Notes under the pieces: generated by a model
The model's input: only the letters and a program-made list of their open reading frames with translations
The model's database searches: none
What the model was told of the DNA's origin: nothing
Shown here: positions 5,980 through 35,722 of the stretch, in pieces
Layout of the letters: every line of letters starts with the position of its first letter
Position numbering within the stretch: position 1 is the stretch's first letter
Position numbers and translations under genes: made by a program
From: Alkaliphilus serpentinus
GTDB taxonomy: Bacteria; Bacillota; Clostridia; Peptostreptococcales; Natronincolaceae
Direction of reading: 5' to 3'
Assembly (NCBI RefSeq): GCF_009017255.1
Contig: NZ_WBZB01000024.1
Span: 1 to 64,000, forward strand
DNA: 64,000 nucleotides

Positions 5980-6942
5980 ATGGAAAAAATTTATGATGTG
6001 GTTATTATAGGTGGGGGACCAGCTGGATTATCGGCAGGTTTGTATGCGGGCAGAGGAAAAATGGATGCTTTGATAATAGAAAAGTCCAAAAGAGGTGGAC
6101 AAATTGTTTCCACCGAGGAAGTAGTAAATGTACCCTGCTCAATTCGAGAAACAACGGGACCCGCAATTATTGAAAGACTAGTGGAGCAAGTTGAAAGCTT
6201 TGGAGCCACAATAGTTAAGGATAACATACAAGAAGTAGATTTATCTGGAGAGGTAAAACTCTTAAAGGGATCAAATGGTGAATATAAGGCAAAGTCAGTA
6301 ATTATAGCCAATGGTGCTAAACCAAGATTATTAGGTGTTAAAGGAGAAGGAAAACTAACTGGAAAAGGAGTATCCTATTGCGCTACCTGTGATGGTGATT
6401 TCTTTACAGATTTAGAGGTGTTTGTAGTTGGCGGTGGAGACTCTGCAGTTGAAGAGGCAATGTTCTTAACGAAATTTGCCAGAAAGGTTACAATACTTTG
6501 TAGAGAAAGTGCGTTAACCTGCGCAAAATCTATAGCAGAAAAGGCCAACTGTCACAAAAATCTTGAGATTATATATAATACTGAAATCACTGAGATCCAT
6601 GGTGAAGATATCGTAGAAGGCATGACAATCAAAAATAATGATACCAATGAAGTTAAAAGGATTATGGCCGATGAAGAGGATGGAACCTTTGGTATATTCA
6701 TATTTATTGGCTTTATACCTCAAACCGAATTATACAAAGGTCTTCTGGAGATGGAGTATGGCTACATAGTAACCAATCAAGATATGCACACCAATATTGA
6801 AGGTGTTTATGCAGCGGGAGATTGTAGGGTTAAATCTTTGAGACAGGTGGTTACCGCCATTGCTGATGGTGCAATTGCAGCTGTGCAGGCAGAAAAATAT
6901 TTAGAATCTAAGGCGTGTAATAATATAAGTCAAGCTAGTTAA
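5980..6942 (+). CDS. trxB: Thioredoxin reductase
   Basis: 320 residues. FAD-binding GGGPAGLSAG (about 11-20), the redox pair Cys134/Cys137 in CATCDGD, the pyridine-nucleotide motif VVGGGDSAVEEA (about 149-160) and a second FAD motif GVYAAGDCR near the C-terminus match low-molecular-weight thioredoxin reductases. It reduces TrxA with NAD(P)H, or possibly with another donor; the preference is not readable. It shares the operon with trxA and grdA. Between the stop and the grdA start (6943-7027) I see only the GAAAGGGTGG ribosome site. Confidence 0.95.
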   Translation: MEKIYDVVIIGGGPAGLSAGLYAGRGKMDALIIEKSKRGGQIVSTEEVVNVPCSIRETTGPAIIERLVEQVESFGATIVKDNIQEVDLSGEVKLLKGSNGEYKAKSVIIANGAKPRLLGVKGEGKLTGKGVSYCATCDGDFFTDLEVFVVGGGDSAVEEAMFLTKFARKVTILCRESALTCAKSIAEKANCHKNLEIIYNTEITEIHGEDIVEGMTIKNNDTNEVKRIMADEEDGTFGIFIFIGFIPQTELYKGLLEMEYGYIVTNQDMHTNIEGVYAAGDCRVKSLRQVVTAIADGAIAAVQAEKYLESKACNNISQAS

Positions 6943-7027: not shown

Positions 7028-7498
7028 ATGGGATTATTTGATGGTAAAAAGGTCATCATAATTGGTGACAGAGATGGTATACCAGGTCCTGCTATGGAGG
7101 AGTGCCTTAAGACAACTGGAGCAGAGGTTGTATTTTCAGCAACTGAATGCTTTGTCTGAACGGCTGCTGGTGCAATGGATCTGGAGAATCAAAATAGGGT
7201 TAAAAATTTAGTTGAGGACCATGGCGCGGAAAACGTCATAGTACTTCTAGGGGCTGCTGAAGCAGAAGCTGCAGGTTTAGCTGCTGAAACAGTAACCAAT
7301 GGGGACCCTACCTTCGCAGGTTCATTAGCAGGAGTCCAGTTAGGACTTCGAGTTTATCACGCTGTTGAAAGAGAATTTAAAGAAGCAGTTAATGAAGAAG
7401 TTTACGATGAGCAAATCGGCATGATGGAAATGGTTTTAGATGTTGATGCAATCACCTCTGAAATGTCATCCATTAGATCAGAATTTACAAAATATTAG
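7028..7498 (+). CDS. grdA: Reductase selenoprotein A (GrdA), UGA-decoded
   Basis: 156 residues when the in-frame TGA at 7157-7159 (codon 44) is read as selenocysteine: the start is [12 protein letters not shown] and the active site is CFVU (Cys41, Sec44), followed by [12 protein letters not shown]. GrdA is the shared small selenoprotein of glycine, sarcosine and betaine reductases: its selenol takes the carboxymethyl group from component B and passes it to component C. Ending translation at the TGA would leave 43 residues, and ATG 7175 would lack the active site. Start ATG 7028 follows AAAGGGTGG. No compact SECIS stem as clear as the one in the component B gene was found. Confidence 0.96.
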
Positions 7499-9156: not shown

Positions 9157-10479
9157 ATGAAAAAGGCGATTCTATATTTAAATCAATTCTTCGGACAAAT
9201 CGGTGGAGAAGAGTTAGCAGACCATGCACCAGAAATAAGAGAAGGTTTAGTAGGACCAGCTATGGAGCTTAATAAGCAGCTGGGAGATGAAGTAGAGGTT
9301 ACCCACACCATTATCTGTGGAGACAACTTTATGGGATCTAGACAAGAGGAAGCAATTAATACCATTCTTGGATTTTTAGAAGGAAAAGAGTTTGATATAT
9401 TCTTCGCTGGACCAGCCTTTAGAGCAGGAAGATATGGTAGTGCCTGCGGTAATATCTGTAAAGCTGTTCAAGATAAGTTTAAGGTTCCTACAATAACCTC
9501 CATGAATGATGAAAATCCAGGAGTGGAGATGTTTAGAAAAGAGCTTTTCATTTTCAAGGGTGGTGCCAGTGCTGCAGCCATGAGGAATGATGTTAAAGCA
9601 ATGGCCCAGTTTGGATTAAAGCTTATAAAAAGAGAAGAGCTACTACCTGCAGAGGAGGAGGGCTACTTTGGAAGGGGCATTCGTAAACAAGTATGGTTGA
9701 ATCCTCCTGTTGTTGCAACAGAAAGGGTTATAGACATGTTATTGAAAAAGGTTCATGGACAACCCTTTGAAACAGAGCTACCTATTCCAAAGCAGGATTT
9801 AGTACCAATAGCTAAAGCTTTGACTGCTGAAGAGCTTAGCAAATTAGAGGTGGCTGTAGTTACATCTGGAGGTATCGTACCAGTAGGTAACCCAGATAGA
9901 ATCCAATCAGCCTCAGCTACTAAGTGGGGTAAGTATGACATTTCTAAGTTAGAGGATCTTGTAAAGGGTGAGTTTATGACCATCCATGCAGGCTTTGATC
10001 CAATGGCAGCAAATAATGATCCAGATGTAATCGTACCCCTTGATGCATTAAGGGCCTATGAGAAGGAAGGAAAAATTGGTGGGGTGTATAAGTATTTCTA
10101 CTCAACGGTAGGTACTGGAACAACCCAAGCAGAAGCTGCTCGTATGGGTAAAGAGATAGCTGCTGAACTTGTTGAAGCTGGGGTGAAGGCAGTAATATTA
10201 ACCTCCACCTGAGGTACCTGTACACGTTGCGGTGCAACGATGAACAAAGAAATCGAAAAAGCAGGTATAACAATCGTTCAAATGGCTAATCTTATCCCCG
10301 TTGCCAAAACCGTTGGTGCAAACAGAATGGTACCAACCATTTCCATACCTTATCCCCTAGGAGATCCTAATACTCCTAAAGAGCAACAGTGGAAGTTAAG
10401 ATATCACAGGGTGGGAGTAGCCTTAGATGCCTTAACCACTGAAGTGGATGAGCAAACCGTCTTTAAAGTAAAAATTTAA
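9157..10479 (+). CDS. grdH: Reductase component B selenoprotein (GrdH/GrdB type), UGA-decoded
   Basis: 440 residues when TGA 10210-10212 (codon 352) is read as selenocysteine. The active site is then TSTUGTCTRCGA, i.e. Sec352, Cys355, Cys358 (UxxCxxC), as in GrdB, GrdF and GrdH. The family releases the amine and leaves a carboxymethyl group on the GrdA selenol. Reading frame, protein similarity and a SECIS-like hairpin all continue across the TGA to 10479. Length fits the family. Assignment to betaine (GrdH) rests on the adjacent BCCT transporter, and glycine-specific GrdB cannot be excluded. AGGAGGTG precedes ATG 9157. Confidence 0.93.
10225..10239 (+). promoter_or_regulatory. SECIS hairpin of the component B selenoprotein
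   Basis: CGTTGC-GGT-GCAACG forms a 6-bp stem with a GGU loop. The loop begins 18 bases after the UGA codon, within the usual bacterial distance for SelB recruitment, and has the expected G/U in the apex. Confidence 0.65.
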
Positions 10480-34814: not shown

Positions 34815-35228
34815 ATGAAGCTTATAAGGAGATATGTATTGGGGATTTACAATATCCTTTTATCACTGGGGGCCCTTTATACAGGGGCGATGATGGTTTG
34901 GGGTAATGGGATATTCGCTGAATATCCACAGGAATGGTTTGGGAAGATTCCCTTTAGTAGTTGGCTTAGCCTAGGAATAATAGGAGTCATCCTATTTGGC
35001 TTAGGAAATGCTATAGCAGCAATATTTTGCCTTAAGGAAAATAGTAACAAGCCATGGCTAATGTCTATAATTATGGGAAGCATTTTTTTAATTACCCTTC
35101 TTTATCAGAGGATGATGCTGGGAGAATGGTACCTGGCAACCCTTCAGTTTTTGATATTGAGTGTTATTCAGTTATTATTGAGCCTTTATGTCTATTTAGG
35201 TCACCAAAAGAAACTGGTAAACCTATGA
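34815..35228 (+). CDS. Small four-helix membrane protein
   Basis: 137 residues from ATG 34815, behind CTGGAGG. Four hydrophobic segments occupy nearly the whole length (about 8-28, 48-72, 79-102 and 106-130), with a short basic N-terminus and C-terminus, suggesting both ends are inside. No named family is recognised. It lies 25 bases after the DUF4173 gene and is probably the last gene of that operon. Confidence 0.7.
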   Translation: MKLIRRYVLGIYNILLSLGALYTGAMMVWGNGIFAEYPQEWFGKIPFSSWLSLGIIGVILFGLGNAIAAIFCLKENSNKPWLMSIIMGSIFLITLLYQRMMLGEWYLATLQFLILSVIQLLLSLYVYLGHQKKLVNL

Positions 35229-35332
35229 TGACTATAGTATAATATTTGAAAGATCAATAATACCAAGCTGATGAGGTCCATTAATCTTAAGGCAATTCAT
35301 TAGTTAAACCTATAGTACTAAGGAGGATAAAA

Positions 35333-35596
35333 ATGAAGAACATAATTGTATTTGGCAGTAAGCACTGACCAGACTGTGAACCTATGAAAGAGTTTCTTTC
35401 AAAAAATGATATTAAGCATACTTATATTGAAATTACCGATAGCATGGCAAATCTTAAAGCATTTTTAAAGTATCGGGATAACCGCAAGGAGTTTGATTCC
35501 ATAAAAAAATATGGTAGCGTGGGGATTCCGGCAATTGTTGTAAATGAAGGAGAAAAGATTTTCTTTGAGATACCCAATATAGATGAACTTAAATAG
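35333..35596 (+). CDS. Glutaredoxin/thioredoxin-like selenoprotein with UPDC active site
   Basis: 87 residues if TGA 35366-35368 (codon 12) is selenocysteine. Strong AGGAGG sits seven bases before ATG 35333. The start MKNIIVFGSKH leads to U12-P13-D14-C15, i.e. a CxxC redox motif with Sec in the first position, at the normal place after the first beta strand of a thioredoxin fold. VGIPAIVV near residue 64 is the cis-Pro loop. The frame stays open to 35596, and a hairpin of SECIS geometry follows the TGA. It may be a thiol/selenol oxidoreductase; partner unknown. Calling from ATG 35384 loses the active site. Confidence 0.9.
35385..35401 (+). promoter_or_regulatory. SECIS hairpin of the glutaredoxin-like selenoprotein
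   Basis: TGAAAGA-GTT-TCTTTCA is a perfect 7-bp stem with a GUU loop. The loop begins 24 bases after the UGA, inside the bacterial window, and shows the expected GU at the apex. Confidence 0.65.
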
Positions 35597-35722
35597 CTAA
35601 ATTGTAGGATATTTAATGTAGGAGCTTAAGCTCTTTCTTTCATATAAAGGGTGGTCTTTAGTGGGAGTAGGCCCTATAATAGTATTAAAAAAGTATTTTT
35701 GATTACCTAAGGGGGATAACCA

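Follow-up and report, generated by a model that had tools for sequence, protein, structure and literature searches.

A glutaredoxin-like selenoprotein gene with a UPDC active site in Alkaliphilus serpentinus

Results

The locus and its reading frame

We analyzed a 64,000-nucleotide stretch of the Alkaliphilus serpentinus genome (contig NZ_WBZB01000024.1), which is referred to in full as the window. On its forward strand, positions 35333-35596 hold a frame of 87 codons that runs from an ATG at 35333 to a TAG at 35594-35596 and contains one in-frame TGA, at codon 12. With this TGA read as selenocysteine (Sec), the product has 87 residues (MKNIIVFGSKHUPDCEPMKEF...DELK). The features of the locus are as follows.

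35320..35326, + strand: ribosome binding site AAGGAGG, 6 nt 5' of the ATG (from sequence)
35333..35596, + strand: very probable glutaredoxin-like selenoprotein gene, 87 aa (homologues, Pfam, AlphaFold2 Grx/Trx fold)
35366..35368, + strand: TGA for Sec12, opening the UPDC active site (TGA or a Cys codon there in aligned homologues)
35375..35377, + strand: TGT for the resolving Cys15 (invariant in 27 homologues)
35385..35401, + strand: SECIS hairpin, 7-bp stem, loop GUU (pair conservation in Sec forms)
35528..35530, + strand: codon of the cis-Pro candidate Pro66 in GIP (invariant column)
35620..35635, + strand: terminator-like hairpin 3' of the gene (consensus scan; weak)

The ideal ribosome site and start codon, the U12-P-D-C15 motif and the cis-Pro loop described in the first-pass annotation are all present. 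AGGAGG-type ribosome sites also precede most homologues, and the cis-Pro candidate (V63-G64-I65-P66) includes two residues, G64 and P66, that are invariant in 27 homologues. Automatic gene calling had been expected to yield only 35384-35596, and the conventional ORF list indeed contains only this frame (70 aa), which begins 3' of the TGA and lacks the active site. A terminator scan gave one site 3' of the gene against 0.7 expected in shuffles, a weak signal, and promoter matches at the gene were no commoner than in shuffles.

The neighbouring genes encode a DUF4153 protein, a CAAX-protease-like protein and a nucleotidyltransferase. When 20 neighbourhoods were compared for clues to a partner, no neighbour or operon was common beyond one genus; within one genus, an mnmA-like gene was common. 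Peroxiredoxin-like, rubrerythrin-like and flavodiiron-like neighbours (L091, L089 and L103, respectively), named by eye from sequence, were isolated cases and too few to suggest a stress-type role.

Fold and placement among selenocysteine glutaredoxins

The window protein passed the Pfam Glutaredoxin model PF00462 (33.4 bits against a gathering cut-off of 22.9), and no NCBIfam model scored over its cut-off. An AlphaFold2 model (mean pLDDT 89.9, pTM 0.77) predicted a Grx/Trx fold in which a strand, a helix and a second strand are followed by two helices, two strands and a short helix. The best solved structural match was the thioredoxin-like BC3987 of Bacillus cereus, and the dithiol glutaredoxin cGrx1 was among the first few; TM-scores of 0.6-0.7 and E-values of about 1e-3 indicate a shared fold and a kinship that is not close.

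It has been previously reported that glutaredoxin-like UxxC selenoproteins form a class (PMC13188914, PMC7642778), and Sec-containing UxxC glutaredoxins are already a listed selenoprotein family (PMC13188914). Within this known kind, the window gene is a new, unnamed subfamily; a search of the open-access literature found no paper that treats it by name. A known relative in fold is C. (Alkaliphilus) oremlandii Grx1 (cGrx1, PDB 7C10), which has been characterized in detail (PMC7642778, PMC4479559) and which shares with the window protein the glutaredoxin fold, the dithiol arrangement and Sec as the first residue of UPxC. In contrast to the UPDC of the window protein, cGrx1 carries CPHC/UPHC and is of the YruB-like type. 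In the fold comparison the two were 28% identical, and the window protein has a longer helical segment that contains the invariant residues K42, L45, R48 and D49, as well as some 10-12 additional residues after helix 2 and ahead of the cis-Pro loop.

The genome encodes two further Sec glutaredoxin-like genes, both of the UPHC type (L053 and L054); the window gene is distinct from these and brings the number to three. L054 (C15:44578-44709) has the U13/C16 spacing of cGrx1 and scores 85.7 bits against the YruB model, just below its cut-off of 88.55. The cGrx1 counterpart in this genome is probably L054 and not the window gene.

Other named families were similarly separated from the window protein. 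The YruB model TIGR02196, whose type includes C. pasteurianum Cp9, matches all 27 members of our alignment, but the window protein reaches only 37.1 bits against the cut-off of 88.55. According to PMC3720550 and its reference 29, the Cp9 gene lies between thioredoxin reductase and peroxiredoxin genes and glutathione is not needed; the window gene, unlike it, has neither a reductase nor a peroxiredoxin gene beside it. Uxx-star proteins (NF041212, NF041114) are likewise short Grx-like selenoproteins and match weakly from strand 1 across the active site, but the scores of 21.9 bits (NF041212) and 24.8 bits (NF041114) stay below the respective cut-offs, 66 and 72, and the window protein, unlike them, retains the resolving Cys (UPDC). 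The NrdH redoxin model TIGR02194 gave 20.3 bits against 85.75, and nrd genes are not beside the window gene. Glutaredoxin-related proteins with CPDC are full-length homologues that differ in having Cys for Sec and in having mostly lost the hairpin described below.

One could suppose that the window protein is a glutathione-dependent glutaredoxin proper that acts like the Sec-Grx1 of C. oremlandii, with MsrA, for example, as its target. Few solved proteins come closer to the window protein in sequence and fold than cGrx1, which, as a UPxC selenoprotein, has been proposed as an MsrA reductant (PMC4479559, PMC7642778). We nevertheless regard this as unlikely: the probable cGrx1 counterpart is the other gene, with U13-P-H-C16; the additional residues ahead of the cis-Pro loop set the window protein apart; and the MsrA of the same genome is without an in-frame TGA. 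Furthermore, two ligase models found no glutathione ligase in this genome: a profile search with PF04262 (glutamate-cysteine ligase) gave no match and the GshF model TIGR01435 was matched only over its C-terminal half and below cut-off.

Exchange of Sec and Cys at residue 12

In a search of 98 related genomes, full-length relatives whose single TGA matches that of the window gene in position were found in 13 genomes besides that of A. serpentinus, and other genomes have stop-free relatives. Further Sec and stop-free forms came from profile searches of samples drawn at class and phylum level, and GTDB contigs added Acetoanaerobium pronyense, Lutispora saccharofermentans and uncultured Clostridia. 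The protein is thus common to many anaerobic bacteria: in total, at least 33 genomes, that of A. serpentinus included, have TGA at this position, and about 40 have the stop-free form. Residue 12 is Cys in every stop-free homologue whose codon was read, a read-out that covered part of the stop-free matches. Full-length CPDC homologues, which the first-pass annotation had proposed to look for at this position, are present (L016, L019, L022-L025 and L027). Homologues align upstream of the TGA, with either TGA or Cys at the codon itself, and the selenoprotein reading survives the refutation that an absence of such homologues was to have provided. Ten columns are invariant in the 27-sequence alignment (G8, U/C12, C15, L22, K42, L45, R48, D49, G64 and P66).

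These data bear on whether the TGA is a true stop, such that the locus holds a broken glutaredoxin or makes only the 70-aa product of 35384-35596. That shorter frame is open and has an ATG start, but its product would be without strand 1 and the active site. More than 30 genomes of many families retain this TGA, and the region 5' of it is conserved as coding sequence: mean identity is 0.54 there (residues 4-11) against 0.49 on the 3' side, and substitutions by codon position are 0.25, 0.26 and 0.59. Together with hairpin conservation in excess of what the protein sequence demands (see below), this makes a true stop very improbable.

On a tree of the family, about 10 changes between Sec and Cys are needed, at least 5 of which are forced by supported branches; the tree rests on 89 columns, resolves few deep forks and includes UPHC redoxins. 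One genus has both forms, Sec in Acetoanaerobium pronyense (L039) and Cys in A. noterae (L119), and this natural pair makes a direct test of the contribution of Sec possible. A plasmid collection yielded four matches, two of them labelled glutaredoxin domain-containing protein, and the sole match in PHROGs was a general thioredoxin.

A SECIS hairpin conserved beyond the coding sequence

The perfect 7-bp SECIS-like hairpin proposed in the first-pass annotation was confirmed as an exact stem (35385-35391 paired with 35395-35401), and it is conserved across species. Its loop starts 23 nt 3' of the UGA. Among 26 Sec forms, 97.3% of pair cells are retained, compared with 47-69% in slid-partner controls, and two of the pairs show changes on both sides. 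Against a synonymous-codon null, Sec forms (n=32, including near-copies and three UPHC redoxins) keep 6.7 of 7 pairs against an expectation of 4.1, whereas Cys forms keep 4.5 of 7 against one of 3.6. Because Sec forms exceed this null and Cys forms do so much less, the hairpin is under selection at the RNA level in forms with a TGA codon. It is lost in most Cys forms. The few that retain it (L019 and L038) may be recent losses of Sec; L038 (genome G009), a Cys-form redoxin of the UPHC type, has a perfect SECIS-like hairpin with 7/7 pairs and -8.3 kcal/mol.

The bacterial SECIS model calls for a loop of 3-9 nt with G in one of its first two positions, a stem of 4-16 bp, 16-37 nt from UGA to loop and a minimum free energy of -7.5 kcal/mol or lower (PMC13188914). 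The geometry of the window hairpin agrees with this model (3-nt GUU loop, 7 bp, 23 nt), but its energy is -5.2 kcal/mol and does not reach the bSECIS cut-off; several homologue hairpins are likewise weaker than -7.5 kcal/mol. Compared with shuffles, the folding energy of the single sequence gave z -0.42 for 50 nt and z -2.6 for 27 nt centred on the hairpin. We rejected the folding energy of one sequence as proof of a SECIS, given the AT-rich context and the value for 50 nt; energy alone would not make this hairpin significant, and its significance comes from the comparison between species. Since such a clearly conserved SECIS falls short of the usual energy cut-off, energy-based searches can miss genes of this kind.

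Selenocysteine machinery

The genome encodes tRNA-Sec (72.7 bits), SelA (628.9 bits), SelB (378.9 bits) and SelD (408 bits), so the selenoprotein reading also withstands the second proposed refutation, a genome devoid of Sec machinery. The gene for SelD (L116, contig C34) has an in-frame TGA of its own (SAGUAGKIGP), and SelD is probably itself a selenoprotein. Across the family, tRNA-Sec was found in 21 of the 22 genomes that have a Sec form and in 15 of the 41 that have a stop-free form (Fisher p = 3e-6, a value that ignores kinship among genomes and is a guide only); the exception is G245, a fragmented assembly with a Sec form in which tRNA-Sec was not found. To a UGA read as another residue, by Trp recoding or by read-through without Sec, we give practically no credence, given the conserved SECIS, the presence of Cys, not Trp, in those non-TGA homologues whose codon was read, and the use of TGA as an ordinary stop in other window genes (for example, the gene ending at 35228).

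Taken together, we are highly confident that 35333-35596 encodes a selenoprotein of glutaredoxin fold, a confidence that covers Sec and the fold and is lower for donor and target. The selenoprotein reading of the first-pass annotation is therefore upheld, although the features of a single sequence, on which it had relied, could not prove as much. The standard ORF call truncates the gene and loses its active site, and NCBIfam has no model that covers it; a family model would correct the gene in at least 33 genomes of our sample.

Proposed mechanism, electron donor and target

We propose that SelB and Sec-tRNA would bind the hairpin so that the UGA at 35366-35368 is decoded as Sec, giving a small dithiol/selenol redoxin of the predicted glutaredoxin fold. 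In its presumed redox cycle, Sec12 would attack a disulfide or oxidized group on the target, Cys15 would resolve the mixed bond, and the resulting Sec12-Cys15 bond would then be re-reduced. As neither a glutathione ligase nor a conserved operon was found, we somewhat favour as donor a flavoenzyme of the thioredoxin reductase type over glutathione, by analogy with the C. pasteurianum Cp34/Cp9 system cited in PMC3720550. This suggestion draws also on the TrxA and TrxB-like genes (TrxB-like at 5980-6942) that adjoin the grd genes elsewhere in the window. The target might, as a weak guess, be a peroxidase or another oxidized protein.

It is possible, and we advance it tentatively, that the window protein belongs to a separate Sec redoxin subfamily of Clostridia and related classes, in which the invariant K-x-x-L-x-x-R-D would serve a dedicated reductase or target and which would work free of glutathione, alongside the Sec redoxins of the UPHC type that the cell also has.

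Other selenocysteine genes in the window and genome

Two grd genes of the window also contain in-frame TGA codons. In grdA (7029-7498) the TGA lies at 7157-7159 (CFVU), and the ORF call starts 3' of it, at 7175. In grdB (9157-10479; 440 aa with read-through) it lies at 10213-10215, and the Rfam model SECIS_4 matches over 10213-10250. Elsewhere in the genome, both UPHC genes have a hairpin similar to that of the window gene after their TGA. In L053, a UPHC Sec Grx-like ORF (C48:27817-27933 and downstream) with this SECIS-like hairpin, the in-frame C-terminal segment carries two CxxC pairs and matches DUF5817 weakly (26.6 of 31 bits).
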